Part shown: positions 27,772 to 56,703 of the stretch, piece after piece
Layout of the letters: every line of letters starts with the position of its first letter
Position numbering within the stretch: position 1 is the first letter of the stretch
From: Runella sp.
GTDB lineage: Bacteria; Bacteroidota; Bacteroidia; Cytophagales; Spirosomataceae
Assembly: GCF_027484545.1 (NCBI RefSeq)
Contig: NZ_JAIXST010000157.1
Coordinates: 1 to 64,000, forward strand
Reading direction: 5' to 3'
Length of the DNA: 64,000 nucleotides
Notes under the pieces: model-generated
Database searches by the model: none
What the model was told of the DNA's origin: nothing
What the model saw: the letters and a program-made list of their open reading frames with translations, nothing else
Translations under genes and position numbers: made by a program

Positions 27772-30155
27772 CTAAATATTGAATTGATTCACACCCTCTT
27801 TTAAGGCAATCGTTTTGCCTTTCCATACCAAGTTACCCGTAATGCTTTTTGGTAGTTCTATTTGAATTTGCCATTTTCGAGTTTATAACTGGTTGAAATG
27901 CTTCCTTTTGCGTGTGGCATTTTGCCATTTATGTCAGTCATTTGCCCTAAATGTGGCTCAATTTTTACTTTTGAAAATGCCAAACCATCACTATCAATGC
28001 CCAAGATGGTGCGGTAAAACTCAATATTTGGACTCGAACCCCAAGCGTGGCAATCGGAGCGGGTTTTGTCCACATCGGAGGTTTCTGCCCAGGTAGTGAG
28101 TCCCATTTGAATATTCTCACGCCATTTGTCCAGCCATTTCAAATAGTCATCCCCTTTCCCCGCTTTTATTAATGCTTGATGCAAATAATACTTGAAATAA
28201 ATAGAAGCTGGAGCGAGTTTGGTGTTGGTAATCAACTGATTAGAAATTTCGATAGCCTCCAATGAAGTCGCAACGCCCGTCAGAATGGCCAATGAATTGG
28301 TATGTTGCGAAAACTTATCTTTTTCTTCGCGGTCGGCAAATAATTTCTTCGTAGCATCCCAGTATTTTGCCCGAATAGTCTTTTTCAAAACCTCGGCGGG
28401 TTGTAGATATTGAGTAGCAAAGGCAGGATTTCCCAGCTTATTTTCCAAATCTGCCGCCACTTGATACGCCCAAAGTAATTGAAAATCAAGCATGGCCGAT
28501 GTACCGTTGGCACTCATTGGGCCAGCACCTGCTTTCCATTCTTTGGCATTGTCCACCCAGTCGGTAAACATCCATTGCGGTGTGTTTTTTAGTCGGCCAT
28601 CGGCTTGTTGGTAGCTTTTGAAATAGTTCAAAATTTGACGAACACCGCCTAATTTCCCCTTTACAAAATCGACATCAGCCCCATATCGGCTATAATCCTG
28701 CAACATTCCGATGTACCAAAGCGAAAAAGTAGGAATAAATTGCGGCGTGTAAGAGGGATGTCGGCTCAAGGTTACGCCTTCGGGTGTGCGAGAAAAATCC
28801 ATTAAGTTGATGGCATTTTTTACCAACCTGTCATCACCGCTATTAAAAAGCGATACCAAAGCTTGAATTCTACCATCACCGATGTATTGGAGTTGCTCAT
28901 AATAAGGGCAATCCATGTAAGTTTCATAGGCACAAAGACGAGCGGTACGCCAGCCGATTTCAAGAATTTTATCCATTTCTGGCTGATTGGCAGTTAGTTG
29001 GGCATTCATCTTAAACGGGTAACCCGTAAAAGCGCCATAAATATCATTCAGAGAAATGGCCTCATTTTGAGTGACAATGCTGAGTTGTAAATAGCGATAC
29101 GTCCGATAAGTAAGGCTGGTAAATTTTTGATTTTGGCTTCCGTCAGAAATCAGACTATCGGCACGGCCTATGAAGGTTTTGCCGGAGGTTTCGTTTCTGT
29201 TGCCTTTTGAAGTCTTATTAAAAAGTGCTTCGGCATATCTTACAGTAATGGTTGCGTTTTTTCCTCCGCTAAACTCCAGATTTGGATAGGCGTTAGTAAG
29301 GTAGCTTTGGTCTAAAATGATATTTGCTTTTGAGTTGGCTGGTATCGACACATCTGTTTTTTTGGTAGGAAACCCAGCAGGTAAACTCGCAATACCTTCA
29401 TTAGTAACCACTTTCACTAATCTTTCATCTTTCAGTTCCATTTGAGGAATGATAGACGGCACCAACATCCAGCCACTCATAGTACCGAATGCCCCCAATA
29501 TATTTTTAGGAACACCTCCACCAACCGGTCTTGCTTTTTGCCAATTTTTATCGTCAAAATTTTCACTTTGCCAAGCTTTTGGACTTAAAGCCAAGTTTCG
29601 TATTTCGCCCGCACCCGCCACATAATAGGCTCTGGTTCTAAAAACCAGAGGAGCAAAGCTATTGTCTTTTTCACAAAGCCAAGTATTGTTGGTATTGATG
29701 GCTGATTCGGCAGAAGTTTCTCCTTGCAAAATAAACCCAGTTCTGTAAGTAATCTGAGCCTCTGGTTTAAACTCGCCCTCATTCCAAACTTGAGCAGCAA
29801 TAATATTTTTACCTGCTTTCAAATAAGCCGCAATATCCAGGGTTTCATAGTTCCAATGGGCAATGTCGCCACGAGCAGGCCCCATCGAAACCAACTTTTC
29901 ATTCACAAAAAGTTTGTAACGATTATCACCCGAAACATGAATTTTATAATTGTTTGGTTTTGAAGCCAAATCAATCATTTTACGGAACATATACACACCA
30001 TAACCGTCATTGCTTGCGTTTGGCATGGAAATCCATTGTGCGTGCCAACGTTTGTTTATTACGTCGGGTTCGCCTGTGGGTGGTCCAAATTGAGCTTTTG
30101 CGAGAATTGACGTTAGTGTTACTAAGATTAGGGCTATTACATTTATTTTTTTCAT
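27772..30155 (-). pseudogene. GH78-like alpha-L-rhamnosidase with a C-terminal frameshift
   Basis: The open frame (27858-30155, 765 residues) has a signal peptide (ILAKAQ), an N-terminal jelly-roll (HVSGDNRYKLFVNEKLVSMGPARG) and the (alpha/alpha)6 barrel of GH78, with YMDCPYYEQLQYIGDGRIQ as the usual acid-bearing motif. It stops at SYKLENGKFK. The expected family ending continues in another frame from about 27873 to the TAG at 27772 (KWQIQIELPKSI ... LVWKGKTIALKEG). The sequence GAAAATGGCAAATT could have come from a tandem AAAATGG pair that lost one 7-base unit. Only the last beta-sandwich strands are affected, so activity might survive, and a sequencing error is possible. Confidence 0.75.
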
Positions 30156-30188: not shown

Positions 30189-31091
30189 TTATTTCAGTTC
30201 AGCTTTCAAAAAGCCAATTACCTTATTTTTAAACTCTTCGGTATCGTACATTTTTCCGAAATGTGGCGCATCTTTCACAATAATGAGTTCATTTTTAACA
30301 CCTTTCGCCGTCAACCACCCGCTCAATAACTTCGACTGTCGGTTGGTAACAATATTGTCTTTCTCCCCATGAAAAATCAGAAATGGCGGATCATTTTTAT
30401 CAATGTAGGTCACGGGGCTCGCGATTGCCGCTAAATCTGGACGAGCAATAGGGCTGGCTCCCAGCAAAATACCTTCCGGCGCTTTGGGGTCTTCACTGCT
30501 TGCCAAGGAAGTCAACTCTGAGGGGCCGTAATAATCCACTACAGCTTTGAAACTGAACTTTTTGGACGTGTTCGGCATAAAAAAAGACTCTGCTTTATTA
30601 TTGTTGGACAATCCCTGCAAGGAAGCCAAATGCCCTCCAGAGGAAAAGCCCATCAGCGCCATTCGGGTTTTATCCAATCCATAGGTATCGGCATTGTCAT
30701 AGAGAAACGAAACCGCACGATTACAATCCTGAATCTGGGCGGGGAATTGAGCCTGCGTAGCCCAACGGTGATCAATGGAAGCGATGGCAATACCGTTATT
30801 CAGCAGGGCCGATACCGTATTGCCCATGTATCCGATATCAGCGTATTTGTCGTTTACTAACCACCCACCGCCGTGTATCAATACCACGAGAGGAAATTTA
30901 CCTTTTTGCGAATTCGGCGGCAAATAAATATCCAACAGATGCTTCTTGAGCGTATCGCCATTGTACGAGATATTGCCGTGCAGCACGGTGCCTTGGGGAA
31001 AAAGTTTCAGGACGCGATTTTCCTGTTGGGCAGTTGCCAAAAATGCTTGAACTACCGCCAACAGGGTAATGCAAAGAAAATTGATTTTCAT
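30189..31091 (-). CDS. Exported alpha/beta hydrolase (BD-FAE/lipase-like)
   Basis: A 300-residue exported esterase with a signal peptide ending at AFLATAQ. The oxyanion motif HGGGW is at residues 73-77 and the nucleophile elbow GFSSGG centres on Ser150. Asp in DPPFLIFHGEKDNIV and His in KDAPHFGKMYDT fit the remaining triad. This is the layout of 'bifunctional' carbohydrate acetyl and feruloyl esterases and of many annotated lipases. It lies 33 bases upstream of the GH78-like gene on the same strand and probably starts that operon. A remnant of a Dabb gene is visible in the 323-base spacer upstream. Confidence 0.85.
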   Translation of the reverse strand: MKINFLCITLLAVVQAFLATAQQENRVLKLFPQGTVLHGNISYNGDTLKKHLLDIYLPPNSQKGKFPLVVLIHGGGWLVNDKYADIGYMGNTVSALLNNGIAIASIDHRWATQAQFPAQIQDCNRAVSFLYDNADTYGLDKTRMALMGFSSGGHLASLQGLSNNNKAESFFMPNTSKKFSFKAVVDYYGPSELTSLASSEDPKAPEGILLGASPIARPDLAAIASPVTYIDKNDPPFLIFHGEKDNIVTNRQSKLLSGWLTAKGVKNELIIVKDAPHFGKMYDTEEFKNKVIGFLKAELK

Positions 31092-31414: not shown

Positions 31415-32620
31415 TTAAGGCTTTGCCAGTTCTTTCAATTTCATAACGAAAAACAAACCGATAAACGCCAACGCCGCCGCTACCCAAAGAAAAGCCGAAG
31501 GGTCGATTTTGTCGGAAAGGACGCCTGCCAAGGCAGGCACCATTACGCCGCCGACAATTTCAGCAATGGCCGTAATAAACCCTAACGCTTTGGCTTTCAA
31601 ATGGTCTGGCACCGACTCAGAAGGCAATACGGCCGCCACGATGGGAAGAAGTCCCATCATAAAATAGGTAAAAAACATGGCAGGAAGATGAATGGCCGAG
31701 CCTGCTAAAAAATAAACGGCAAAAGGGTAAAATGTCCCCACAACCATAAAAATCAGTAGCACTTTTTTACGCCCGATCTTATCGGAAAGTCCAGGAACTA
31801 TGACGGAAGACAAAAGTCCCGAAACACCCAAAAGCCCCATGTTTTTGCCCATTTCATCAGCCGACATTCCTTGAAAATTCACAAAATAATTGGAAATAAA
31901 AGGCAAGGTGGCAAACCACCAGCCAAACACACAACACGCTGCTCCGATACCCCATTTTATGTTGTTGTATTGTAACAATTCAGCAATATTGAGGGCTGAT
32001 TTCTCTTTTGTTTGAGCGGCCGACGCTTCGGCGCTTTCAGCAGTTGATTTTTTGACAAATTTCCACGCCAGTAAACCTAAAACCAAGCCTGGCGCTCCTG
32101 CCACGAAAAAGGCATTGCGCCACCCCATGTTTTCGGCAATTTGCACCAAAACGACCGGGGCTAAAATAGACCCAAACAAGGCAGAACCAAAAGCCTGCAA
32201 AATCCCAGCATTCAAACCCAAACGATTAGGAGAGGATTCTCTTTCGACAAAATTTTGCGCCAAAGGTATCACCGGGCCTTCGGCAAAGCCCATCACAAGG
32301 CGGGCAATCAGCAACGTAACAAACGAAACCGCCCAACCTGAACCGACTGAACAAAGAGAGAAGGTGAAAACAGCGGCAATGAAAACGAGTTTTTTCTTAT
32401 TGTGGGTTTCGGCCCAAGCCGTTGAGAAAAAACTCGAAAACGCCCAAGCCAACGACAATGCCCCTGCTAACAATCCGATTTGAGTGTTGTTGAGTTGAAG
32501 GTCTTTGGCCACGTAAGGCATCAGAAAATTAAGCGCCAGGCGGTCGAAAAATAAGCACCCAAAAGTGAATGCCATTAACAATACGATACCGTTTTCGTAG
32601 GTAAAAAGTCCTTTTTTCAT
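31415..32620 (-). CDS. MFS transporter of the anion:cation symporter type
   Basis: A 401-residue, twelve-segment major facilitator. The opening LLMAFTFGCLFFDRLALNFLMPYVAKDL and the GFAEGPVIPLAQNFVERE segment are typical of the ACS group (hexuronate, galactonate, phthalate and similar organic anions). The loop SDKIGRKKVLL is the conserved MFS motif between the halves. It lies between the esterase and the broken GH3 gene, all on the minus strand, so import of sugar acids or small phenolic acids released outside is a reasonable guess. Confidence 0.8.
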   Translation of the reverse strand: MKKGLFTYENGIVLLMAFTFGCLFFDRLALNFLMPYVAKDLQLNNTQIGLLAGALSLAWAFSSFFSTAWAETHNKKKLVFIAAVFTFSLCSVGSGWAVSFVTLLIARLVMGFAEGPVIPLAQNFVERESSPNRLGLNAGILQAFGSALFGSILAPVVLVQIAENMGWRNAFFVAGAPGLVLGLLAWKFVKKSTAESAEASAAQTKEKSALNIAELLQYNNIKWGIGAACCVFGWWFATLPFISNYFVNFQGMSADEMGKNMGLLGVSGLLSSVIVPGLSDKIGRKKVLLIFMVVGTFYPFAVYFLAGSAIHLPAMFFTYFMMGLLPIVAAVLPSESVPDHLKAKALGFITAIAEIVGGVMVPALAGVLSDKIDPSAFLWVAAALAFIGLFFVMKLKELAKP

Positions 32621-34107: not shown

Positions 34108-34371
34108 TCAAATAGAAATGAGGGTTTTCAGACCGCACGGGCCTTTACTTCTTTTTGATTCGCCTTGGGTCAAAAAGATAAAATCGTAAACCGTATTGCA
34201 GTAAGGAGGCAGAGGAAATTTGCTCTTGTCCCGAAAATCCTCCAATCGGTTAATGTGAAAAAGCTCATGGTGCGCTTCGGCAAACAGGGGCTGCTGCCAT
34301 TCAATGGTCTCGAAATGAAAACCCGGTGAAATCTCAGGTTTTAAAATAGGTATTTCATTTCCGCTTGCCAT
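34108..34371 (-). pseudogene. Truncated AraC-family regulator (sensor N-terminus only)
   Basis: An ATG 14 bases after the cyclase stop opens an 87-residue frame: EIPILKPEISPGFHFETI, HHELFHINRLEDF and FPLPPYCNTVYDFIFLTQGE. This is the usual start of Bacteroidota AraC-type regulators with a cupin sensor. Similarity ends near KRSKG and the frame stops 10 codons later; the cupin core and the two helix-turn-helix motifs are absent. Its place at the end of cluster I suggests that the cluster's own regulator has been lost. The 250 bases up to the GH35 remnant show no other gene. Confidence 0.6.
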
Positions 34372-34385
34372 AGCCAAATTTTCTA

Positions 34386-35144
34386 TCAATCCAATATCGC
34401 TACGGCGCGCGTCCATCCCGCACTTGCGGCTTTGATTTTGGCAGGAAAACAAGCCACTTTGAAGCCAAAGGGTGGCAATTGGTCCAGATTAGCCATTTTT
34501 TCAATTTGGCAATATTCTTTTTCGATGCCCACGTAATGCGCCTGCCAGATGATCCCTGGACGCGGATTGGCCCGATAATCAGCCGCCTGAATGTGCAACG
34601 GAATATCCCAGCCCCAACCGTCGGTGCCCATAACTTTGATACCTTGATCAATGAGCCAATGTGTGGCTTTGGCCGAAGCTCCTACGTGGATTTTTACAAA
34701 ATCAGGGTCGTGCAAACGCTTATCGGCATCGCAGCGAATCAGGACGATGTCAAAGGGTTTGAGGGTATAATTTATGGCGGCGAGTTTTTCGATCAAATCT
34801 TCTGGCTCAAACATATAGCCGTCGGGTTTGTCGGTAAAATCCAGCACCACGCCATCGTGAAAGAACCAGTCCAGCGGCATTTCGTCAATGGTACGCGAGG
34901 GTTTCCCTTCGCTGGTCGGGAAATAATGGTACGGTGCGTCCACGTGCGTTCCGCAGTGGCTCGTCACGGTCAGAAACTCCCCGGCGGGGCCGTTACCGTC
35001 AATAAACACATCGCCGGCAATGCCTTCGAAGAGTTTTCCGCCCATTTTTTTTGCCCCTTCTTTGTGGTCTTCATAGACGATTTTAGTAGGAAGTGGTTCT
35101 TTGATTTCCTCAGAAATCGTCACGGAAAGGTCAATGATTTTCAT
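34386..35144 (-). CDS. Cyclase-family (kynurenine-formamidase-like) metal hydrolase
   Basis: A 252-residue member of the cyclase/formamidase superfamily. The metal motif HCGTHVDAPYH spans residues 63-73 with His63, His67, Asp69 and His73. Relatives open amides or lactones (kynurenine formamidase, isatin hydrolase) or act in polyketide cyclisation. The sequence is complete and of normal length. It is the last intact gene of cluster I, 60 bases after the ABM gene. A degenerate G-rich repeat lies 3 bases upstream of its ATG. Confidence 0.85.
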   Translation of the reverse strand: MKIIDLSVTISEEIKEPLPTKIVYEDHKEGAKKMGGKLFEGIAGDVFIDGNGPAGEFLTVTSHCGTHVDAPYHYFPTSEGKPSRTIDEMPLDWFFHDGVVLDFTDKPDGYMFEPEDLIEKLAAINYTLKPFDIVLIRCDADKRLHDPDFVKIHVGASAKATHWLIDQGIKVMGTDGWGWDIPLHIQAADYRANPRPGIIWQAHYVGIEKEYCQIEKMANLDQLPPFGFKVACFPAKIKAASAGWTRAVAILD

Positions 35145-35146
35145 AT

Positions 35147-35169
35147 AGCCCCTGTATCCCCAATGGGGA
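35147..35169. repeat. G-rich repeat, degenerate, before the cyclase gene
   Basis: AGCCCCTGTATCCCCAATGG then GGA. It lies directly before the cyclase ATG (35144), where a ribosome-binding region would be. Confidence 0.6.
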
Positions 35170-35204
35170 TTTTTTAAAATGTAAAAAAAATATTTTAGCC
35201 CGTT

Positions 35205-35570
35205 TTAGATTCCCCCATCGGGACGGTACGCCGCGCGGGTTAGGGGGCTGTAATGCAGCACCACGGGTGGATTTTCAAAAAACGGCCCAATCAATCCACG
35301 CCATTCTTTGAATAATTCCGATTCGCGAAATCCGATGGTGTGCGCTTCGATGCTCTCCCAACGAATGAGCAGCACGTAGCGGTTTTGCTGTTCGATACAC
35401 TTCTTAAAATCATGTCCCAGATAGCCTTTTGATTGACTGATCACAGCTTGGGCTTTTTCTAAATTTTGCTCAAACTCAGCATTCATGCCCGGTTTGATGT
35501 CGACGGTGGCAAGTTCTAAAACAGCCCCCTTTCCCCCAATGGGGGTATTTTTCTCTCTGTTTTCGTCCAT
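35205..35570 (-). CDS. Antibiotic-biosynthesis-monooxygenase (ABM) domain protein
   Basis: From the ATG at 35570 the product is 121 residues with one ABM ferredoxin-like domain: LATVDIKPGMNAEFEQNLEKAQ, GYLGHDFKKCIEQQNRYVLLIRWES and FRESELFKEWRGLIGPFF are its repeated strands and helices. Both ends come from G-rich repeats: NTPIGGKGAV precedes the first strand, and the C-terminal tail YSPLTRAAYRPDGGI and stop codon lie in the copy at 35210-35249. ABM proteins are small cofactor-free monooxygenases or heme-binding helpers. In this cluster it might act on a quinol-like intermediate, which is inference only. Confidence 0.8.
   Translation of the reverse strand: MDENREKNTPIGGKGAVLELATVDIKPGMNAEFEQNLEKAQAVISQSKGYLGHDFKKCIEQQNRYVLLIRWESIEAHTIGFRESELFKEWRGLIGPFFENPPVVLHYSPLTRAAYRPDGGI
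35210..35249. repeat. G-rich repeat with nested CGGTACGCCGCGCGG insert
   Basis: TTCCCCCATC, then GGGACGGTACGCCGCGCGGG, then TTAGGGGGCT. It forms the last 13 or so codons of the ABM gene. Confidence 0.85.
35523..35545. repeat. G-rich repeat in the ABM N-terminus
   Basis: AGCCCCCTTTCCCCCAATGG then GGG, translated as TPIGGKGA near residue 9 of the ABM protein. Confidence 0.8.
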
Positions 35571-35616
35571 GATTAACAATTTTATCCGTTCATTTCAATC
35601 TCCTATCCAATCAATA

Positions 35617-35657
35617 TTCCCCCACTGGGGCGGGGCCGCCCGTGCGGTTAGGGGGCT
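35617..35657. repeat. G-rich repeat with a different nested insert, at the FAH stop
   Basis: TTCCCCCACTGGGG, then CGGGGCCGCCCGTGCGG, then TTAGGGGGCT. The repeat provides the last codons (VAP) and the stop of the FAH-family gene. Confidence 0.85.
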
Positions 35658-36604
35658 ACTGTATTTCTCAAAACCCCAATTCCTTCAATTTCCAATTCCA
35701 CCACATCACCCGGCTCTAACGGACGGTGAACGGAGAAATTATTTTCAATCAGGCTCCCCCAACCTACTGTCCCTGAGCCCAATATATCGCCCGGCATCAG
35801 ATTTACGTTATTTTCGGAGGCACGTTCCATCATTTGTTCGAAGGTATAATACACGGTTTGGTAATTCCCTTCACAGACCGTTACGCCATTGATACGGGAA
35901 GTCATCTTAAGTTTAAATCGGTCGATTTGGACACTCGGTACCCGAATTGGGTCAGTGAATACGCTGGCATCAAACGGCACTCGGTATTGCTCCATTTCGT
36001 CGGCCGTTACAATACATGGGCCAATGGCATTCGCATAGTCTTTGCCTTTATGGGGGCCCAACGGAATCTCCATTTCCACTTTTTGGATGGCACGGGCGGT
36101 CCAATCGTTGAAAACGGTATAGCCAAAAATGTAAGGACGGGCGTCTTCGGCTTTGATATCTTTGCCTTTTTTGCCGATGATGCAGGCCAACTCCAACTCA
36201 ATGTCCATTTTGGTTTCTTTGGTCGGGCGCTTGATCTCGTCATCGGGGCCGTAAATGGCCTGATGATTGGTAAAATAGAAAATCGGCATATCATACCAGG
36301 CAGGTCCGATTTTGTGCCCAAAAGACCGGGACGCATTTTGCATGTGCATCTCAAAGCCGATGTAATCCCGGAAACTGCGGGGATTGGGCAAAGGGGCCAT
36401 CAATTGAATCTCCGATAATTGATAATGCGGCTGAACATCACCTAATGCCCTGATAACGGGGAAGTACGCTTCGTGATTATCAATGAACGTCAGCATATCG
36501 GTGGGCAGGTTGGAATTCGCCAACTGCATATCCACCACGCCCTCGCCTACCAGCCAGCCTGTGCGGGAATCACCCTGTGGGTTTTTAAAGGTTACTAATT
36601 TCAT
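35648..36604 (-). CDS. Fumarylacetoacetate-hydrolase-family enzyme
   Basis: A 318-residue FAH-fold protein. The metal-binding residues of the family are in DIELELACIIG (Glu136, Glu138) and FNDWTARAIQ (Asp167), and PGDILGSGTVGWGS is the conserved late loop. The family hydrolyses or decarboxylates acylpyruvates such as fumarylpyruvate and oxalocrotonate-type ring-fission products. With an extradiol dioxygenase in the same cluster it is the best candidate for a lower-pathway step. It ends inside a G-rich repeat and starts 7 bases after the upstream SDR. Confidence 0.87.
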   Translation of the reverse strand: MKLVTFKNPQGDSRTGWLVGEGVVDMQLANSNLPTDMLTFIDNHEAYFPVIRALGDVQPHYQLSEIQLMAPLPNPRSFRDYIGFEMHMQNASRSFGHKIGPAWYDMPIFYFTNHQAIYGPDDEIKRPTKETKMDIELELACIIGKKGKDIKAEDARPYIFGYTVFNDWTARAIQKVEMEIPLGPHKGKDYANAIGPCIVTADEMEQYRVPFDASVFTDPIRVPSVQIDRFKLKMTSRINGVTVCEGNYQTVYYTFEQMMERASENNVNLMPGDILGSGTVGWGSLIENNFSVHRPLEPGDVVELEIEGIGVLRNTVAP

Positions 36605-36611
36605 CTTTTTT

Positions 36612-37475
36612 CTATTTTAAAAGTCTACCCCCGTCAACGGTAATGATATTACCGGTGGAGAAAGTTAGAGAAGTGGCTAACGCATAAACCGCATTGGCCA
36701 CATCTACGCCTGTTGCAAAACGCCCAAGCGGTGTATTATCCATTTGCTTTTGCAGGAATGTTGGGTCGAAATTCTTGGTATATTCACCTTCTACAAAGCC
36801 GGGTGAAACAGATACCATTCTTATTTTGGGGGCTAAAACCCGTGCCAATGAACGTGTCATAGAATCAATGGCTGCTTTTGAAGCACAATAGGCCACATTA
36901 CTTCCAATACCGGAAATACCTGCAATGGAGGAAATATTTACAATCAGAGAAGATTCATTTCTTTCATCCGAGCCTTTTTCTAATAAATCTTTGGTGGCTC
37001 GCACCATCGCAAACGAACCTCTGAAATTGGTCTCCATGATTTTATCGATCCACTCATCAGTCAAGCCTTCCAAATCATCATGCGGTACCGGTGTGGTAAT
37101 GCCGGCGTTATTCACTAATACATTTAACTTTCCATATTTTTCTGACACAAAGTCCTTTAAATCAGCCACTTTTTGTGCATCAGTTGTGGGAGCGTGGAAA
37201 ATTGAATTGCCAGCCCCCCCCGCCCGCGCGGCGTACCGTCCCAATGGGGGAGCTATTTGTTCGCTAATTTTATTCAATTCTTCCAATAGTTTCTCTGCTT
37301 TTTCGGAATTGCTATTATACGTCGCAATGACTGCAAAGCCGTTTTCGGCAAACTTTCGGCAAATCGCAGAGCCGATTTCTCCTGCCCCACCGGTGACGAG
37401 GACAGCCCCCCCCGCCCGCGCGGCGTACCGTCCCAAAGGAGGTGCTATTTCTTCGTTATTTTTAATTCTTTCCAT
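36612..37475 (-). CDS. SDR oxidoreductase carrying two in-frame G-rich repeat insertions
   Basis: From the ATG at 37475 the protein is 287 residues, about 30 longer than usual. The extra length is two copies of [15 protein letters not shown]: one at residues 10-24, directly before the first beta-strand [11 protein letters not shown], and one at 74-88, between the helix after strand 2 and the next strand. Both match 43-bp DNA repeats exactly at 37404-37446 and 37212-37254. The cofactor loop, the NNAG motif and YCASK are intact, so activity may be retained. A TTG two codons upstream is an alternative start. The gene overlaps the 3' end of the HisD-like gene by 14 bases. Confidence 0.85.
37212..37254. 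repeat. 43-bp G-rich repeat with nested insert, inside the SDR (b)
   Basis: AGCC(C)n-GCCCGCGCGGCGTACCGTCC-CAATGGGGGAGCT, in frame, encoding residues 74-88 of the SDR. Confidence 0.9.
37404..37446. repeat. 43-bp G-rich repeat with nested insert, inside the SDR (a)
   Basis: Same as the copy at 37212-37254 except that the right end reads CAAAGGAGGTGCT. It encodes residues 10-24 of the SDR. Confidence 0.9.
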
Positions 37476-38784
37476 AAGCAACTGTATTAGTTCCCCCTTT
37501 GGGGGTTAGGGGGCTATACTTACGTACCCGCAAATCGGCTTGTTCTTTATGGCCTGAGAAGTTTTCTATTTCGCATAATCGGGAGCAATATTCGCCGATC
37601 ATCGCGCTGGCTTCGGGCGTTCTGATTTCCTGATACGTACAGGTTTTCAGGAACTTACCAACCCAAAGCCCACCTGTGTAGCGTGCTGCTTCACGAGTTG
37701 GTAAGGTATGGTTAGTGCCGATCACTTTGTCGCCGTAGGCTACGTTGGTTTTATCACCGAGAAATAAGCCGCCGAAATTGGTCATTTTATCCAAAAAATA
37801 ACGCGGATTTTCGGTCATCACCTGTACGTGTTCGCTCGCGATGCGGTCGGCTTCTGAGACCAATTCATCCACGGTATCTACCAAAATCACCTGTCCGTAA
37901 TCCCGCCACGACACGATCGCCACATCCGCCGTGGGCAACACCGCCAATTGACGTTGAATTTCCGCTTCGATGCCTTCGGCAATGGTTTTACTGGTGGTCA
38001 ACAAAATCGCGGGCGAGGTAGGGCCGTGTTCGGCTTGACCAAGCAAATCTGTCGCGCAGGTTTCTACATCGGTGGTATCATCGGCAATGACGAGCGTTTC
38101 CGTTGGTCCGGCAAACAGGTCGATGCCTACCTTTCCGTACAATTGGCGTTTGGCTTCGGCCACGTAGGCATTTCCTGGGCCCACCAGCATATCTACGGGC
38201 TGAACGGTTTCGGTACCCAAGGCCATCATGGCAATGGCCTGCACACCGCCCAACAAATAAATCTCATCGGCTCCGGCCATGTACATCGCCGCCACGGTTG
38301 CGGCAGGAATTTTGCCATTGATGGGCGGCGTACAGGCAATAACGCGTTTTACCCCCGCCACTTTGGCAGTCAATACACTCATGTGCGCCGATGCTACCAT
38401 CGGATAGCGCCCGCCCGGTACGTAGCAGCCGACTGAATTGACAGGAATGTTTTTATGCCCCAAAATCACGCCCGGTAAAGTTTCCACTTCGACGTCTTTG
38501 ATAGATTCCCGCTGAATTTGGGCAAAATTACGGATTTGGGTTTGGGCAAATGTGATGTCTTCTATGACCTGCTCGGGCAACCCGGCGATGATTTGTTGGA
38601 TTTGTACCGACGATAATCGAAAGCTTTCGGGCGACCATTTATCCAGTTTCTCCGAATATTCTCTGACTGCTTTGTCGCCGTTAGCGGCCACATTTTCCAA
38701 CATATTTTCTACCAAAGCCCGAACTTTCATATCGGCTTCTTTGCTTTCCGCGTAGGTAATCCCTTTTTTTACTTGTTGTATCAT
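37462..38784 (-). CDS. Histidinol-dehydrogenase-family protein
   Basis: A 440-residue HisD-type NAD-dependent dehydrogenase: [23 protein letters not shown], the zinc/substrate block [16 protein letters not shown] and [19 protein letters not shown] are conserved. There are no other histidine biosynthesis genes nearby, so a catabolic role is likely; HisD paralogues are known to oxidise other alcohols to acids, for example in sulfopropanediol breakdown. The last 17 residues ([17 protein letters not shown]) come from a G-rich repeat and the bases after it, and run 14 bases into the next gene. It begins 30 bases after the upstream SDR. Confidence 0.88.
37491..37515. repeat. G-rich repeat at the HisD C-terminus
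   Basis: The plain 25-bp form TTCCCCCTTTGGGGGTTAGG then GGGCT. It encodes YSPLTPKGG near the HisD end. Confidence 0.85.
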
Positions 38785-38814
38785 TTTCTTAATGGGGAAA
38801 TTTAAAAATAGGTT

Positions 38815-39582
38815 TTAGGCAAACGCCCCGCCATCCACTGCCATAGCATGACCGGTAATAAAAGTGGATTCGTCCGAACACAGCCACAGCGCCACATCGG
38901 CTACTTCCTGCGGTTGGCCCATGCGTTTCATGCGTTGAAGGTTTTTGGCCTGTTCCAATGCCTCCGGATTATAGGCCAATTTTCGCCGCCCTTCCATCAG
39001 CATCGGTGTTTCAATGGCGGTGGGGCATATCGCATTGACCCGAATATTTTGGGTAGCGTACTCAATCGCGGCCGTTTTGGTGATGCCCACAACGCCATGC
39101 TTTGATGCTGCATAAGGCACATTGGTGGGCTGTCCGACTAAGCCGGCCGCCGAGGCAATGTTAACGATGTTTCCGCCACCCTGTACGAGCATTTGAGTGA
39201 GTTCCGCTTTCACGCAATACCAGGTACCCGTCAGGTTGATGGTTATCATTTGCAACCAATCATCTTCGGGGTATTCGTGTGTGGGTAAGGAAACTGTACC
39301 GGCAATTCCGGCGCTGTTCACTGCACAATCCAAGCGCCCGAAAATTTCAACGGTGGTTTTCACCGCATTTTCTACGTCTGTTCGCTTCGAAATATCCACT
39401 TTCAGCGCAATGGCTTCTGCTCCAAAAGCAAGCAATTCCGCCAAAACCGCTTGGGCTGCGGCTTCGTTGATATCGGTCACGACCACTTTTCCACCTTCCC
39501 GTCCGAAAGACAAAGCCGTCGCTTTTCCGATTCCCGAGCCGGCTCCCGTCACAAAGCACACTTTATCCTGAAATCTTTTCAT
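38815..39582 (-). CDS. SDR oxidoreductase
   Basis: From the ATG at 39582 (MKRFQDKVCFVTGAGSGIG) the product is 255 residues. It has the NAD(P) loop TGAGSGIG, NSAG and the catalytic YAASK, and ends with the usual TGHAMAVDGGAFA. TDIN after strand 2 suggests NAD(H) preference. Ten in-frame codons upstream overlap the previous gene and are probably not used. The start sits one base from the stop of the upstream SDR, so translation is likely coupled. The substrate is a cluster I alcohol or ketone, otherwise unknown. Confidence 0.88.
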   Translation of the reverse strand: MKRFQDKVCFVTGAGSGIGKATALSFGREGGKVVVTDINEAAAQAVLAELLAFGAEAIALKVDISKRTDVENAVKTTVEIFGRLDCAVNSAGIAGTVSLPTHEYPEDDWLQMITINLTGTWYCVKAELTQMLVQGGGNIVNIASAAGLVGQPTNVPYAASKHGVVGITKTAAIEYATQNIRVNAICPTAIETPMLMEGRRKLAYNPEALEQAKNLQRMKRMGQPQEVADVALWLCSDESTFITGHAMAVDGGAFA

Positions 39583-39583
39583 A

Positions 39584-40354
39584 TCAATTTCCGTCGCTGA
39601 TGGTGGTTCCACCGTCTACAATAATGTTTTGTCTCGTTATAAATCCGCCGGCTTTAGATGCCAATAGGACGGCCACTCCCGCAATTTCTTCCACCTCTCC
39701 CACTTTACGCAATGGGGTTTGTGAAAGTCGTTTTTGCATAAATTCCCGATTATTCATCAGTCCCTGTGAAAAAGGAGTATTAATCAATCCCGGTGAAATG
39801 GCATTTGTTCGAATATTATCCGGGCCGTATTCAACCGCAAGATTCTTAACCAATTGAATAAGTCCTGCTTTCGAGATACCGTAAAGACCAAGATTTTTAT
39901 TTCCGCGTACTCCCGCAATACTTGCCAGATAAATAAGCACTCCGTCTTTTTGAGCCTGCATGGAAGGAAGTACTAATTGCGTCAGGTAAATCGCCGCCTG
40001 CAAATTCAGGTGCATTATTTTATCAAAGGTGTCGGCATCTATGTCCATCAATCCTCCCACGGGAGCCATACCTACTCCACTGACCAAAATATCAACCCTA
40101 CCGAATGCTTCAATGGAACGCTCAAATAGCCGGTCGATGTCTTCTTTTTTAGAGAGGTCGCACGGACTTCCTACTACGTCTATGTCTTGGTTTTTGAAAG
40201 AATGGACAGAATTTTCAATGCCTTCTTTGTCATTGCTCGTAATGATGATTCGTGCTCCATGCAACCCCATTGCTTCGGCAATGGCTCGACCCATGCCGCT
40301 TGATGCTCCGGTAATCAGAGCAATTTTTTCCGTTAAATCGAATAAATATTTCAT
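39584..40354 (-). CDS. SDR oxidoreductase
   Basis: The start at 40354 (MKYLFDLTEKIALITGASSGMG) overlaps the stop of the SMP-30 gene as ATGA, which favours it over a far upstream in-frame Met. The product has 256 residues with TGASSGMG, an atypical VSGVG in place of NNAG, and the catalytic YGISK. The C-terminus is ITRQNIIVDGGTTISDGN. It is the third SDR of cluster I counted from the promoter-distal end, and may work with the neighbouring SDR on consecutive oxidations. Confidence 0.88.
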   Translation of the reverse strand: MKYLFDLTEKIALITGASSGMGRAIAEAMGLHGARIIITSNDKEGIENSVHSFKNQDIDVVGSPCDLSKKEDIDRLFERSIEAFGRVDILVSGVGMAPVGGLMDIDADTFDKIMHLNLQAAIYLTQLVLPSMQAQKDGVLIYLASIAGVRGNKNLGLYGISKAGLIQLVKNLAVEYGPDNIRTNAISPGLINTPFSQGLMNNREFMQKRLSQTPLRKVGEVEEIAGVAVLLASKAGGFITRQNIIVDGGTTISDGN

Positions 40355-41391
40355 CGCCAATGAATCATTTTTTGTCCGGCAACGGGGCTTTGGAAATAAG
40401 GAATTTTTGCTCCTCTTAAACTCCCGAGGTAAACGGTTTTCAAATCCGCCCCGCCAAAACTGAGGCTGGCCATCCAAGGGCAGACCTTCCCTTGCGTAGC
40501 GGCTAAAATTTCGGGCGTAACGCAGCGATTTTCGTAGGCGTCAAACAATCGTTTTTTCGTTTCCGGGTCGCTGTCATCCAACAAGGTGATTACTTCCCCT
40601 TCGGGTGTGATGGCAATGAGTTCATCGGTAAAAATGAGGGTAACCCACAAATTCCCAAAGGCATCAAAGGCAAATCCATCGGGAAAGCCGCCCAACTTTG
40701 ACGGTCCGTATACTTCTCTTCCGTACAGGTCGCCGTTGGGTTTTACGCGCATTCTTGAAATTTTCCACGCCGTACTTTCCACCACGTAGAGCCATTCTTC
40801 GTTGTCATCAAATCGAATTTCGTTCGTTCCGCAAAAACCATCGGCTACCATTCTAACGCCTTTTTCGTCCATCAAAGCGATGTAGCCGTCAGTCGCGCGG
40901 GTATTGATTTGGTCCGACCACGGCTCGGTTTGGGTCGTGACCGTAAACCAAATTCTACCTTTGGAATCTCGCAATGGAAAGTTGGTTTTCCCCAAGGGTT
41001 TTCCATCAATTTCCGTTAAAACGGTCGTCAATTTTCCATCGCGGGTCATTTTTTCGATGTGATTGGTTCCCCAATTGGCAATGATAAAATCCCCGTTTGT
41101 GTCAAAACAAATTCCGTTGGGTAATGAACCCACAGCTTGGATATAAACAGCCCCCCACCCCCCAATGGGGGCTGTTTCGATTTTTAACCCAATGAATTGC
41201 TGACTTGTAAATACTCCCCCATCGGGGGCTGGGGGGCCCAGTTTCACCACGCCGCCGCGTGCATCTGCCGTCCAAACTGTGCCGTTGGGTTCGGTCAGAA
41301 TACATTCGGGGCGTTGCAGATCGTGGCCCAGGTATTGAATCTCCTCACGGTTTACCCGCCAATTTTTCAGCGGGTTTTGCAGGGCTGCCAT
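40351..41391 (-). CDS. SMP-30/gluconolactonase-like protein with G-rich repeats
   Basis: A 346-residue six-bladed propeller of the SMP-30/LRE group: RPECILTEPNGTVWTADARGG, LPNGICFDTNGDFIIANWG, DNEEWLYVVES and GGFPDGFAFDAFGNLWVTL are its blade motifs and supply the metal-binding Glu, Asn and Asp. Such enzymes hydrolyse lactones. Two G-rich repeats lie in frame, encoding LGPPAPDGGV (residues 51-60) and TAPIGGWGAV (73-82), which widen a blade loop. It starts one base after the FAD hydroxylase stop and overlaps the next SDR by four bases. Confidence 0.85.
   Translation of the reverse strand: MAALQNPLKNWRVNREEIQYLGHDLQRPECILTEPNGTVWTADARGGVVKLGPPAPDGGVFTSQQFIGLKIETAPIGGWGAVYIQAVGSLPNGICFDTNGDFIIANWGTNHIEKMTRDGKLTTVLTEIDGKPLGKTNFPLRDSKGRIWFTVTTQTEPWSDQINTRATDGYIALMDEKGVRMVADGFCGTNEIRFDDNEEWLYVVESTAWKISRMRVKPNGDLYGREVYGPSKLGGFPDGFAFDAFGNLWVTLIFTDELIAITPEGEVITLLDDSDPETKKRLFDAYENRCVTPEILAATQGKVCPWMASLSFGGADLKTVYLGSLRGAKIPYFQSPVAGQKMIHWR
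41149..41173. repeat. G-rich repeat inside the SMP-30 gene (b)
   Basis: AGCCCCCCACCCCCCAATGG then GGGCT, in frame (TAPIGGWGA). Confidence 0.8.
41214..41238. repeat. G-rich repeat inside the SMP-30 gene (a)
   Basis: CTCCCCCATCGGGGGCTGGG then GGGCC, in frame (GPPAPDGG). Confidence 0.8.
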
Positions 41392-41392
41392 T

Positions 41393-42529
41393 CTAAATGG
41401 GAGCGGTTAATGCCATTCCGGTTTTACCCATAAGCATACCCATGTTTGCCCCTTCCGGGAGTGGTTGGTCGTTGTATTCCAGTAACTCCCAAGCGCCTAA
41501 GGTTTCGGAAACATCCACCACCATCATGCAACGCTCATAACGACGTTTCATGTATCGATAGAAAATCGCTTCCACTTCCCCTTCTTTTTGTAACTCTTCT
41601 ATCAACACCACGGCATCTTCAATGGCTAAGGCTGCGCCTGAGCCTAATTGTGGAATGGTGGTGTGAGCTGCATCTCCCAAAACAACCACTCTATTTTTAT
41701 ACCAAGGAGCCGGCATTTTGAGCGTCTCTAATGCTCTGTAATTAACCAGTTTAGCATCGGTTACCTGAGGAATCAGCTCTTGAACGATAGGCACCGGATA
41801 AGCCGACATATACCCTTTCAGTTTTTCAACTAATTGGTCTTCCGGAATCAGGGGGTTATCACCTTCGGCAGAATTTAAAAATATATAACACGACTCGGTC
41901 GTCATCGGGATCACCCCAAGTTTGTGTTTTTTATTGAAGAAAATATAACCGGTATCCAAGTCGGCAGGGCGTTTGAATGGATAACGCCATACGGATAAAC
42001 CTACATAAGTTGGTTTGAATTCTCCAAAAATGAGTTTCCGTACTTTTGAATGTACACCATCGGCGGCAATCACAATATCATAGCTATCCGTGGTACCGTC
42101 CGTAAAAGTAACATTGGCAATATCGGGCTGATTATCAATTGATTCTACAGTAGCCCCCATCCGATATTTTAATCCGATTTTCTGCGCTTCCTCAAATAAA
42201 ACATCGTGAAGAATGCGTCGGGAAATACCGTTATGGCTCGGGAACCTGCCAATGGGCGGTGTGCCGGCTTCGCCGATCTGAACCCCGTGAGGTAAACACA
42301 ATTTTACTTTGCCATACGGAGAGCCTCTTCGCATTACCTCATCGGCTACCCCAATGGCATCCAACGCTCTAAGGGCATTGGCTTGCTGAATGATACCGAC
42401 CCCATACACATTAAACTCCGAAAGGATTTCTACCAAATCTACCGCAAAACCTGCTTTTTTTAAACCAATGGCTACCGACTGACCGCCAATTCCTCCGCCA
42501 ACGACCAGCACTTTGTTAATTTTTGTCAT
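41393..42529 (-). CDS. FAD-dependent aromatic hydroxylase (salicylate-hydroxylase-like)
   Basis: A 378-residue class A flavoprotein monooxygenase. The Rossmann turn is GGGIGG (residues 11-16), the middle motif is VIAADGVHSKVR, and the second FAD motif GDAAHTTIPQLGSGAALAIEDA is near residue 285. These enzymes use NAD(P)H and oxygen to hydroxylate phenols or hydroxybenzoates, often as the step before ring cleavage. It follows the alpha/beta hydrolase by 27 bases and is nearly fused to the SMP-30 gene, so all are one operon. Confidence 0.88.
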   Translation of the reverse strand: MTKINKVLVVGGGIGGQSVAIGLKKAGFAVDLVEILSEFNVYGVGIIQQANALRALDAIGVADEVMRRGSPYGKVKLCLPHGVQIGEAGTPPIGRFPSHNGISRRILHDVLFEEAQKIGLKYRMGATVESIDNQPDIANVTFTDGTTDSYDIVIAADGVHSKVRKLIFGEFKPTYVGLSVWRYPFKRPADLDTGYIFFNKKHKLGVIPMTTESCYIFLNSAEGDNPLIPEDQLVEKLKGYMSAYPVPIVQELIPQVTDAKLVNYRALETLKMPAPWYKNRVVVLGDAAHTTIPQLGSGAALAIEDAVVLIEELQKEGEVEAIFYRYMKRRYERCMMVVDVSETLGAWELLEYNDQPLPEGANMGMLMGKTGMALTAPI

Positions 42530-42556
42530 TTTATTCGTGGTTGGAAATTAAATGGG

Positions 42557-43684
42557 TTATGCTTTTATTTTTTCAGCGATCCAATCGTACATATTGAAGG
42601 TTTTGGTGAAGTCATCTACCGAACAGTGAGCCGAGCCGCTTTCATTTTTAGGAACAATCTCCATGACGTGCTCGCAGGTAAGAACTTCGTTTACTTTGTA
42701 GGCATTTTCTACAAAATTCTGACGGTCGTCTTCGCCGTGTAAAATATAAGTAGGCATTCTGATTTTTTCTGCGACGCCCTCCAGTGTAAAGTTTTTGAGT
42801 TTTTCACGGGCCTCTGTCATATTTTCAGCGCCCACGATATGCTGAACGATCTCGGCCAAAGGGTGATTATCAGGGCGATTTTTCCAAATGTCATAATACG
42901 ACCAAACAGCCCCAAAAATCATACACACCTTGAAACGGGGCTCGAAAGCTGCACAACGGGCCGCCATGTATCCCCCCATTGAAACGGCCCCGATACCCAC
43001 CCGCTCTGTGTCCACTTCGTCTTTCAGGTTTTCGATAATGTACTCCAATACCGCCGTTCCGGGTACATTGTAATCGTAACGGGTATGAAGGTGATTGAGA
43101 CGCAAAGCGGCTCCCTGTCCCGGGCCATCTACTGCCATCATCGCAATACCGCGCTCATTGAGGTGCTGGGCAATGCCAAAATATAATTCCTCAGCCAAAC
43201 TGTCCAGTCCGCCAAACATGACGACCACGGGAGGGTTTTTCACACCGGTCGGTTTGAACAGATACGCGGGCAAAAAAGACAGGTTCGCCTGCCCGGCCTC
43301 AAAAGGTATCTCCATTTGAAGGGGTTTTTCATCAAAAAGATGAATGGCTTTGATGAACGCATCACGACATTTTAAATAATAAGGAATCTTGCGTTCATCA
43401 CGGAGCGTCATAAAAAATTCGGCGGTACGCAGGTAGTTGAACGCTCTGAGATAGGTTCTTCTGGCAGACACTCGCTGACCCGATTGGGCGTATTTTTCCG
43501 CTATATCATAGACTTTATCCCCCATTTTCACCCATGCTTTGTTGAAGCTTTCGCGATCAGCTGGATCTATTTCACTTGCAACTTCCAATATTTCCGCAAA
43601 TTCGCCGCCACCGTAGTGTGCCTGCGTCAATGCTCTGTTTACCTGATAAGAGGGCATGTACTGCCCCGGAAAATAATGCCACAT
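42557..43684 (-). CDS. BAAT/DHPON-hydrolase-like alpha/beta hydrolase
   Basis: The start at 43684 (MWHYFPGQYMPSYQ) removes 19 codons derived from a repeat-rich spacer. The 375-residue product has a helical N-terminal domain (about 1-130) and an alpha/beta hydrolase domain with the elbow GAVSMGGY, an Asp in HGEDDRQNF and a late His in GSAHCSVDD. This layout matches 2,6-dihydroxypseudooxynicotine hydrolase and related C-C bond hydrolases. In a cluster with a ring-opening dioxygenase it is a good candidate for cutting a carbon-carbon bond in the side chain or ring-fission product. Confidence 0.8.
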   Translation of the reverse strand: MWHYFPGQYMPSYQVNRALTQAHYGGGEFAEILEVASEIDPADRESFNKAWVKMGDKVYDIAEKYAQSGQRVSARRTYLRAFNYLRTAEFFMTLRDERKIPYYLKCRDAFIKAIHLFDEKPLQMEIPFEAGQANLSFLPAYLFKPTGVKNPPVVVMFGGLDSLAEELYFGIAQHLNERGIAMMAVDGPGQGAALRLNHLHTRYDYNVPGTAVLEYIIENLKDEVDTERVGIGAVSMGGYMAARCAAFEPRFKVCMIFGAVWSYYDIWKNRPDNHPLAEIVQHIVGAENMTEAREKLKNFTLEGVAEKIRMPTYILHGEDDRQNFVENAYKVNEVLTCEHVMEIVPKNESGSAHCSVDDFTKTFNMYDWIAEKIKA

Positions 43685-43707
43685 GTTCTTGCGATTAGGA
43701 TTTTTTG

Positions 43708-43800
43708 AATGACGAATTATTCGAATGACGAATGGGTTCAAATGAGTACGAATAATTCGTTATTCAAAATTCGTCACTCGTCATTCGCTCATTCGTCATT
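43708..43800. repeat. ATTCGTCATTCG repeat cluster
   Basis: GAATGACGAAT occurs twice at the left and ATTCGTCA/CTCGTCATTCG words several times at the right, so the spacer between the extradiol dioxygenase and hydrolase genes can fold back on itself. The same words occur at 7.65-7.71 kb. Confidence 0.75.
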
Positions 43801-43804
43801 ACTC

Positions 43805-44794
43805 TTAAATATCAGCCGGCTTTACCACACCGTCAGTTAGTCCAAGCTTCTTGCCTTTGCCCATTTCGGCAAAAGGATTAGCACTGCCCCAGGCGTCGTT
43901 GGGGTTATCTTTCAGGTAGTGAACATCCAAATGGTCTGGCGCGAAGACCAAACGGGCACAGGCGTAATATTCAAACAAAATACCGCTGCCTGGGTCAATA
44001 ATATAAATGAAGAATCCTTCGTCAGCTTTGTGGCGGGTCGGAGAGCCCATTACGCTCTTGTAGCCTTTTTCAATAAAATAATCAAGGGCTAAAAGTACTT
44101 CTTCACGACTATCTACATTCCAACAAATATGATTTAACACGCCTTCATTTTCGCCGATATTCGGATCCGTAAAGACTGCAATATCGTGCGAAAGATTACC
44201 GATTGTGTGTAGCCCGCCAATGGGCGGAATATCGTCCGTAATGCGGATCTCGTCGGGGTTTTTCAAACCGAACGTCTGCCAAAACGCTTTTTCTGCGGCA
44301 TACTTTCCTTTGGCTACCATGTACGTCACGTGGTCGAAACGGCGAGGATTAGCTCCTTTCAGACGATTGCTCGAATAGCGGTCAGCGTAGACACTGCCTC
44401 GTTCGCCCGTTTCACGCAACCAAACGACATCCCAAAAAACCTCGTGGGTATGCCCATCTGGCGACTGAAACCGGTAGGCTTTTCCGTGTCCTAAATCGCC
44501 TTCAACCCAGCCTCTTCCAGCCCCTAAGCTGTCAATGTGTGCTACACACTCCTCCAACGCTTCGGGGCTATCGGCGCGCCAGCCAATGTGCCCCAAGCCC
44601 GAGGCGGCGCTTTGGGTTAATTTTAACGTATGATGAAAATAATCGCCCCAAGCCCGGAGGTACACAGAGTTATTTTCTCTGCCTGTTTCATCCATTCCGA
44701 CAATATCGCGGAAGAAATGAACTGATTTATCGAGGTCGGTTGTCAATACCTCCACGTGTGCTAATTGCGAAAAGTAATGCGGGTTCTTTGCCAC
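43805..44794 (-). CDS. Extradiol ring-cleavage dioxygenase (VOC, type I)
   Basis: A 329-residue protein with two vicinal-oxygen-chelate modules (about residues 8-130 and 150-290), the type I extradiol layout. The second module holds the expected iron ligands: His in RFDHVTY, His in GVLNHICWNV and Glu in GILFEYYA. Such enzymes open catechols next to the diol with Fe(II) and oxygen. It is the first gene of cluster I, read away from the divergent phosphoesterase gene. The ring substrate is unknown. Assignment to the family is firm; assignment to catechol 2,3-dioxygenase proper is not. Confidence 0.87.
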   Translation of the reverse strand: MAKNPHYFSQLAHVEVLTTDLDKSVHFFRDIVGMDETGRENNSVYLRAWGDYFHHTLKLTQSAASGLGHIGWRADSPEALEECVAHIDSLGAGRGWVEGDLGHGKAYRFQSPDGHTHEVFWDVVWLRETGERGSVYADRYSSNRLKGANPRRFDHVTYMVAKGKYAAEKAFWQTFGLKNPDEIRITDDIPPIGGLHTIGNLSHDIAVFTDPNIGENEGVLNHICWNVDSREEVLLALDYFIEKGYKSVMGSPTRHKADEGFFIYIIDPGSGILFEYYACARLVFAPDHLDVHYLKDNPNDAWGSANPFAEMGKGKKLGLTDGVVKPADI

Positions 44795-52640: not shown

Positions 52641-52649
52641 AATTGAAAT

Positions 52650-53837: not shown

Positions 53838-53859
53838 TTTCTATTTTTTTATTTTTTTC

Positions 53860-55017: not shown

Positions 55018-55021
55018 AATT

Positions 55022-56701: not shown

Positions 56702-56703
56702 GG

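Follow-up and report, generated by a model that had tools for sequence, protein, structure and literature searches.

Flavonoids make up a major share of the plant phenolics found in litter and root exudates. In 1972, Jeffrey and Evans are said to have traced a taxifolin–dihydrogossypetin route in a soil pseudomonad, in which fission of the A ring yields a hydroxy-oxo-valero-delta-lactone and oxaloacetate; no genes tied to this route were found in the literature searched. Genes have been described for two systems that are related to one another. In the fde naringenin operon of Herbaspirillum seropedicae SmR1, FdeE carries out 8-hydroxylation, FdeC dioxygenates the A ring, and degradation continues through protocatechuate and pca (PMC11303751, PMC11069340). 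The ifc cluster of Variovorax sp. V35 is induced and cleaves the A ring of isoflavones: IfcA, a class A hydroxylase, hydroxylates position 8, IfcB, a glyoxalase-type dioxygenase, cleaves the ring, and a gene resembling 2,6-dihydroxypseudooxynicotine (DHPON) hydrolase is also present (PMC11069340). According to the same report, homologues of IfcA occur in Proteobacteria, the stable intermediate X3 is 2-hydroxy-5-(4-hydroxyphenyl)-4H-pyran-4-one, and the gene for conversion of the ring-fission product to the pyranone was left unidentified (PMC11069340). In a carbon count from the published masses, subtracting X3 (C11H8O4) from the sum of X2 (C15H10O7) and water gives C4H4O4, and therefore the C ring is retained and a C4 acid leaves in the ifc route. 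The present work concerns an operon of eleven genes from Runella sp. (Bacteroidota), located on the minus strand at 34386–44794 of contig NZ_JAIXST010000157.1, of which the first 64 kb of 79 kb (hereafter, the window) were analysed. With a probability of roughly 0.6, this operon serves to break down flavonoid aglycones through A-ring cleavage, after which an SMP-30 lactonase opens the lactone left of the C ring and the B ring passes to the protocatechuate pathway.

Read in order, the operon encodes a VOC-family dioxygenase, a DHPON-type hydrolase, an FAD hydroxylase, an SMP-30 lactonase, two SDR-family dehydrogenases (SDR1 and SDR2), a HisD-type dehydrogenase, a third SDR (SDR3), an FAH-family enzyme, an ABM monooxygenase and a cyclase-family hydrolase. 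The initial annotation of the window had placed eleven such genes here in one direction, and the listing of open reading frames agrees with it, as do Pfam matches for each of the families it named. It had also described the genes as having coupled starts. Spacing between the longest reading frames ranges from a 127 nt overlap up to a 68 nt gap, and start–stop coupling is found from the hydroxylase through SMP-30 and SDR1 to SDR2, given internal ATGs, with the remaining genes merely close together.

The first line of evidence comes from Bacteroidota relatives, where 33 of the 198 genomes searched, the 7.12 Mb Runella genome itself included, are core-positive in the sense of encoding the hydrolase at ≥50% identity. 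Thirty-two regions around the hydrolase were compared, drawn from 31 of the other 32 positive genomes (G085 was left out), and in 26 of these the VOC dioxygenase, hydrolase, hydroxylase and FAH enzyme occur together at >60% coverage. Five of the six exceptions (L051, L054, L060, L062 and L069) end at a contig edge on the operon's missing side, and in the sixth, L057, the FAH match is partial. The four core families co-occur in so many relatives that they are no chance assembly. HisD and SDR3 are found in the same 20 regions, L057 adding a partial HisD without SDR3, and the corresponding counts are 19 for the cyclase, 11 for ABM, 4 for SDR1 and 6 for SMP-30, the last being a lower bound because SMP-30 genes also lie on the core contigs of three genomes (G048, G075 and G066; L084, L085 and L093) outside the regions examined. 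With four families steady and the HisD–SDR3 and SMP30–SDR sets varying between regions, the ring-cleaving four look like the heart of the operon, and the two sets behave as modules. In Runella sp. CRIBMP and R. aurantiaca, ten of the eleven genes are present at 66–99% identity, and SDR1 has no match in either. The operon is plasmid-borne in Emticicia oligotrophica and Hymenobacter monticola, and rhamnosidase homologues lie near it in four of the relatives' loci (L050, L053, L060 and L063).

A second line of evidence is the company of the protocatechuate pathway. A pcaH-type protocatechuate 3,4-dioxygenase, called as an intradiol dioxygenase family match of ≥156 bits (the next lower score being 105), is encoded by 32 of the 33 core-positive genomes versus 16 of the 165 core-negative ones (Fisher p ~8e-24). 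Within the ten genera that hold both kinds of genome (61 genomes), the figures are 31/32 versus 8/29 (Cochran–Mantel–Haenszel p ~9e-8), and the single core-positive genome without a strong pcaH, G110, is an assembly that is 88% complete. In H. monticola, pcaHGBDC and a 4-hydroxybenzoate hydroxylase gene directly follow the operon, while in Runella another contig (C226; L238/L239) carries pcaH, G, B, a fused pcaDC, pobA, pcaIJ and pcaF. About 13 kb from these genes lie a paralogue of the cluster's AraC regulator (46% identity), an MFS transporter, an enoyl-CoA hydratase and an acyl-CoA synthetase, a group that perhaps serves hydroxycinnamates. Moreover, for nine of the twelve regions that lack a full-length HisD, the genome (G026, G031, G034, G062, G071, G092, G100, G103 or G115) has a HisD orthologue at 74–78% identity within ~30 kb of pcaH on one contig, a pattern that points to a role for HisD in making the benzoate end product.

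Glycosides provide a third link. PF19906, the beta subunit of C-glycoside deglycosidase (CGDB), was matched in 9 of the 198 genomes: 8/33 core-positive versus 1/165 core-negative (p ~2e-6, uncorrected for phylogeny), and the lone core-negative genome, G022, encodes a HisD orthologue at 88% identity. In G074, G075 and G100 the subunit lies within ~13 kb of the hydrolase, together with GMC oxidoreductase and isomerase-like genes, and the module of isomerase-like, CGDB and GMC oxidoreductase genes adjoins the set in L056, L064 and L075 and partly in L049. On plasmid pDAETH-1 of Deinococcus aetherius (L075, 6037–8955), for example, it directly precedes a ring-cleavage set composed of VOC, cyclase, FAH, hydrolase, FAD enzymes, SMP-30 and SDR. 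The glycosidases that flank the window operon are two rhamnosidase-family genes. The initial annotation had proposed a substrate with both aromatic and sugar-like parts, such as a C-glycoside or a plant phenolic. Cleavage of a plant-phenolic ring, with glycosides as the likely incoming form, is supported by deglycosidase genes near the core in three relatives and on the Deinococcus plasmid, as well as by the two flanking rhamnosidase-family genes. The annotation's deduction of a sugar part from the lactonase and the polyol-type dehydrogenases fares less well, and both enzyme types are, in our view, better explained by the hydroxylactone that the C ring would become once the A ring is lost.

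From these families, we infer a substrate, an order of steps and a set of reactions. The aglycone would be freed by the flanking rhamnosidases and esterases, or by C-glycoside deglycosidase in some relatives. The class A FAD hydroxylase (41393–42529; PF01494, FAD_binding_3, with the PRK06847 subfamily above its cut-off) would then add an ortho hydroxyl to the A ring, and the resulting 7,8-diol would be cleaved between C8 and C8a by the VOC extradiol dioxygenase (43805–44794; PF00903), leaving a delta-lactone, the old C ring, with an acyl-pyruvate side chain. Next, the DHPON-type alpha/beta C–C hydrolase (42557–43741; FrsA-like and alpha-beta hydrolase Pfam matches) could cut the 1,3-dicarbonyl bond (C4a–C5) in a retro-Claisen reaction and release an oxaloacetate-level C4 acid. 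The FAH-family enzyme (35648–36604; PF01557), with a predicted acylpyruvase or oxaloacetate-handling role, would process either the acyl-pyruvate or the released acid. The SMP-30 lactonase (40351–41391; PF08450, SGL) would open the remaining aryl-hydroxy-oxo-valerolactone, and the SDRs and the HisD-type dehydrogenase (37462–38784; PF00815, Histidinol_dh) would oxidise the hydroxylated chain until the B ring emerges as protocatechuate or 4-hydroxybenzoate and is passed to the pca pathway, whose genes lie elsewhere in the genome. A lactone arising from A-ring fission would suit SMP-30 and, once opened, would offer the SDRs and HisD a hydroxylated chain; the “sugar-like” enzymes would thus act on this hydroxylactone chain, not on a sugar.

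Solved structures and curated models bear on several of these assignments. The dioxygenase has His155, His222 and Glu275 at the positions of His, His and Glu in its best solved match, 9wgj, presumably as metal ligands; when it is aligned to homoprotocatechuate 2,3-dioxygenase (1f1x), the latter two residues again coincide and the first His is out of register. The solved chains nearest to it bear the names of catechol or homoprotocatechuate dioxygenases, and it scores 212 bits with the catechol 2,3-dioxygenase (catechol_2_3) model and 124 bits with HpaD, where the cut-offs are 320 and 321, so that the catechol 2,3-dioxygenase equivalog test is not passed. The longest reading frame of the hydrolase begins with TTG, its first ATG being codon 20, and the top Protein Data Bank match and best solved relative is 2,6-dihydroxypseudooxynicotine hydrolase (2jbw, 77 bits). 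Ser254 and Asp339 line up with Ser and Asp of 2jbw, and His372 falls one column off its His, residues that we take to be catalytic. HisD passes the TIGR00069 histidinol dehydrogenase model, its closest solved relatives are sulfopropanediol 3-dehydrogenases (8v35, 402 bits), and a second copy in the genome is 35% identical to it. These relatives hint at catabolism of the sulfonate 2,3-dihydroxypropane-1-sulfonate (DHPS); no sulfonate gene was seen among the eleven. SDR1 (39584–40477; PF13561) probably starts at the ATG of codon 42, coupled to the SMP-30 stop, and SDR2 (38815–39612; PF13561) at that of codon 11. The cyclase-family hydrolase (34386–35144; PF04199) distantly resembles isatin hydrolase (5nnb, 43 bits).

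The two remaining genes, SDR3 (36612–37481; SDR Pfam match), the partner of HisD in relatives, and the ABM monooxygenase (35205–35579; PF03992), have been modified by a GC-rich repeat of short length. Within SDR3, a pair of 62-nt copies with 90% likeness is inserted in frame at 37211–37272 and 37403–37464, where they occupy the N-terminus and a variable loop, and the end of the ABM gene (35220–35237) carries the same repeat, giving the protein a repeat-derived C-terminus. An 18-nt core of the repeat occurs at 21 genome sites with ≤1 mismatch, versus 0 for a reversed control. The repeat is reminiscent of palindromic elements that insert into genes while keeping the reading frame.

Parts of the operon recur well beyond the Bacteroidota. 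An alignment scan of species genomes with SMP-30 returned 123 relatives, and the 80 named loci kept span Bacteroidota, Deinococcota, Chloroflexota, Proteobacteria and Actinomycetota. With neighbours called at >50% coverage against the window proteins and flanks of at most 10 kb, so that the counts are lower bounds, FAH is found at 55 of the 80 loci, the hydrolase at 45, the FAD hydroxylase at 42, the cyclase at 33, SDR3 at 26 and HisD at 24. Outside Bacteroidota, the lactonase retains 47–65% identity (64% in Deinococcus and 59% in Azospirillum plasmid copies), and HisD recurs at 63–68% in 17 loci from Proteobacteria and in a single one from Meiothermus; SDR3 is mostly at 43–50%, so that only the lactonase and HisD are close. 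Two of the proteobacterial hosts have been studied with flavonoids. According to published accounts, Paraburkholderia oxyphila catabolises catechin, which it converts to taxifolin, and P. xenovorans LB400 grows on naringin and naringenin only, among the flavonoids tested as sole carbon source. The locus of the former runs SMP30, HisD, SDR3, FAH, amine-oxidase-like, epimerase, VOC, Rieske, hydrolase and FAD hydroxylase, and the latter has SMP30, hydrolase and FAH at one locus and the hydroxylase and HisD at a second.

Close lactonase and HisD sequences alongside diverged hydrolases and hydroxylases are what would be expected if various entry enzymes fed a common lower pathway. It is tempting to suggest, at odds that we put somewhat short of even, that SMP30–HisD–SDR3 represents the missing lower half of aerobic flavonoid A-ring catabolism: a multi-phylum module that would open the aryl-hydroxyvalerolactone remaining after A-ring fission and oxidise it as far as protocatechuate. 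Exchangeable upper modules, with two VOC types and with hydroxylases and hydrolases that diverge, would feed this module, as would genes for O- or C-deglycosylation. If true, this would assign genes to a pathway known so far from the biochemistry of 1972.

The second VOC type also occurs in Variovorax, the genus of the ifc cluster. The P. oxyphila VOC has 50–55% matches at 7 places in 6 of 61 Variovorax-genus genomes, and these VOCs score 453–478 bits against a P. oxyphila/Azospirillum VOC profile. Six of the seven regions were examined. Four of them (L218–L221) encode FAH, FAH, cupin, VOC, Rieske and FAD hydroxylase and, by gene content, are candidates for ifc-like clusters; L216 encodes FAH, FAH, Rieske and VOC, with a mere hydroxylase fragment at the edge, and L217 encodes an alpha/beta hydrolase, VOC, Rieske and FAD hydroxylase. 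Among the six, a match to the DHPON-type hydrolase profile is found in L217 only.

Several observations weigh against flavonoid A-ring cleavage as the role of the Runella operon. Disruption of the DHPON-like gene in Variovorax left daidzein degradation unaffected (PMC11069340), and among the eleven operon genes Pfam finds no cupin family. The likeness to ifc and fde is drawn from published descriptions of FdeE, FdeC, IfcA and IfcB, so that orthology is at most presumed, and the flavonoid growth of P. oxyphila and LB400 is linked to the genes in question by no mutant in the literature read. The window dioxygenase belongs to another VOC subfamily than those of the P. oxyphila, Azospirillum and Variovorax-genus loci (30–40 bits across). 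Outside Bacteroidota, identity falls to 33–44% for the hydroxylase, 28–32% for the hydrolase and mostly 22–28% (up to 37%) for FAH, and this divergence leaves room for another substrate. Moreover, many of the 80 SMP-30 loci show no partners in view, SDR and FAH are common families, and the neighbour counts carry no background rate. The association with pca is partly phylogenetic, pcaH also occurring in the 16 core-negative genomes, and three of the twelve HisD-less regions break the HisD–pcaH pattern: in G074, HisD is separated from the hydrolase by ~15 kb and from pcaH by 44 kb; in G002, a contig end truncates the region and a different contig carries HisD; and in G110, HisD is partial and a strong pcaH is absent. 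Finally, a whole-genome search of Runella gave no PF19906 match.

Among other explanations, the one that survives best is that the same logic of hydroxylase, extradiol dioxygenase and retro-Claisen hydrolase is applied to a different plant polyphenol, such as a naphthoquinone (juglone, for example), a coumarin, a stilbene, or an anthrone or anthraquinone C-glycoside. Matches of the hydrolase further include AntI and hydrolases of the Ayg1 type, whose substrates are polyketides, and an ABM protein, an FAD hydroxylase and a hydrolase are combined in naphthoquinone degradation, a point on which the literature matches listed showed nothing. The hcdABC genes for 3-(2,4-dihydroxyphenyl)propionate likewise comprise a hydroxylase, an extradiol enzyme and a hydrolase, and C-glycoside deglycosidases have been assayed on carminic acid and mangiferin besides flavones (PMC8563793). 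Such a substrate is nonetheless unlikely: ABM is found in just 11 of the 32 core regions and hence is not central, and the flavonoid-degrading hosts, together with the pca link, point to a substrate whose second ring ends as a hydroxybenzoate.

A more doubtful proposal is that two pathways lie side by side, namely monoaromatic meta-cleavage (VOC, alpha/beta hydrolase, FAD hydroxylase, FAH) and sugar oxidation (SDR, SMP-30, HisD, FAH), as in the diketo-hydrolase route of L-rhamnose. The adjoining rhamnosidase-family genes could free L-rhamnose, a mix of SDR, lactonase, SDR and FAH is that of oxidative L-rhamnose routes, and the absence of the lactonase from many core regions as examined makes it seem separable. 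The FAH enzyme does match the 2,4-didehydro-3-deoxy-L-rhamnonate hydrolase model, but at 80.3 bits against a cut-off of 500, and the fumarylacetoacetase model is likewise far under its cut-off. FAH, moreover, tracks the aromatic core (26/32) whereas SMP-30 is in 6/32 regions, and SMP-30 stands beside genes for aromatic cleavage in Azospirillum, Deinococcus, Meiothermus and P. oxyphila, where the gene listings, incomplete for the plasmids, show no rhamnosidase. Sugar oxidation as the main reason for the lactonase and dehydrogenases was rejected, given the low model score and the fact that none of the eleven genes encodes a sugar-acid dehydratase. A conventional meta-cleavage route of the catechol type for a simple phenolic acid, to which the catechol 2,3-dioxygenase and HpaD matches might point, is very improbable, as both scores lie under their curated cut-offs, the aldehyde-dehydrogenase, hydratase and aldolase families of the meta pathway are not among the eleven genes, and the hydrolase is of the DHPON type.

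The initial annotation confined the unit to the eleven genes, and the unit is in fact larger. On the same strand to the left lie a GH106 alpha-L-rhamnosidase (22426–25779; PF17132, 1098 bits), a type-B carboxylesterase (26122–27753; PF00135, 322 bits), an alpha-L-rhamnosidase-like six-hairpin glycosidase (27858–30155; PF17389, 69 bits), a BD-FAE esterase (30189–31091; PF20434, 266 bits) and an MFS transporter (31415–32620; PF07690) with homologues beside the cluster in several relatives. Between the transporter and the operon, the segment 32779–34359 is filled with debris in overlapping frames, comprising GH35-like N-terminal and GH3 C-terminal pieces and an N-terminal remnant of an AraC regulator (34141–34359, minus strand; 49–55% to about residues 1–75 of the relatives' cluster-adjoining AraC proteins), and it is perhaps a deletion junction. 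An intact AraC gene lies beyond the window at 69796–70698 of the contig, its product 79% identical to the AraC of one relative (L041), and is surrounded by genes for a GH3 enzyme, a LacI-type regulator, a GDSL-type esterase and a TonB-dependent receptor.

Other aromatic loci are present in the same genome. A second cluster in the window (51786–58185) encodes a flavin reductase, fumarylacetoacetase-like and homogentisate-dioxygenase-like proteins, an FAD hydroxylase and a GH30 glycosidase. Ahead of it in window coordinates, on the plus strand, is an RraA-like aldolase gene (50518–51471; PF03737), with counterparts close to the cluster in five of the relatives' regions (L041, L042, L043, L062 and L072). 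On a further contig (C318; L074, 5873–18214), a paralogous VOC dioxygenase (38% identity) is accompanied by AraC, PIG-L, PrpF, carboxylesterase and BD-FAE genes. This locus looks like a different, gallate-type pathway; its genes, together with the RraA-like gene at 50518, are reminiscent of the gallate/4-oxalomesaconate route.

How, then, does the operon compare with known systems? The initial annotation held that it fits no known route, a view that has to be given up, as a class A FAD hydroxylase, a VOC extradiol dioxygenase and a DHPON-type hydrolase occur together both here and in the published ifc cluster, a likeness at the level of families. At the same time, the refutation named by that annotation, namely a cluster already characterised that shares the gene order and has a known substrate, was not found in the Creative Commons-licensed literature searched. 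Among the titles and abstracts listed there on fde and ifc, none mentions a cluster of this make-up or from Bacteroidota, and a passage of PMC4440368 names no fde genes. The differences from ifc are several: where ifc has an IfcD-type cupin for the pyranone step, the window operon has a lactonase; its SMP-30, HisD, SDR3, cyclase and ABM genes are not among the named ifc genes; it belongs to Bacteroidota and adjoins rhamnosidase-family genes and an AraC-type regulator, unlike ifc; and its dioxygenase is probably of another VOC subfamily. The likeness to fde, compared by description, lies in the predicted 8-hydroxylation, A-ring dioxygenation and the downstream protocatechuate and pca steps. The fde regulator, FdeR, is of the LysR type, in contrast to the AraC type of the window operon. 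The delta-lactone and oxaloacetate of the 1972 route, for their part, would supply substrates for SMP-30 and the dehydrogenases. As for the dfg, dgp and CGD clusters for C-glycoside deglycosylation (PMC8563793), the same module adjoins the set in relatives, and the Runella genome gives no CGDB match.

The operon is not filed as a member of fde or ifc, since it has no cupin and its dioxygenase is not an established orthologue. In the literature read, established enzymes cover a few upper steps and come from Proteobacteria (IfcA, IfcB and IfcD; FdeE). The operon offers candidates for the steps that follow, with the DHPON-type hydrolase and FAH possibly acting between the ring-fission product and a pyranone-type intermediate, and SMP-30 in the next step. 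It further points to a parallel system in Bacteroidota, plasmid-borne in two cases and able to adjoin glycosidase genes. By analogy, the operon most likely works as fde and ifc do, and it looks like an uncharacterised branch of this known flavonoid-degrading route.

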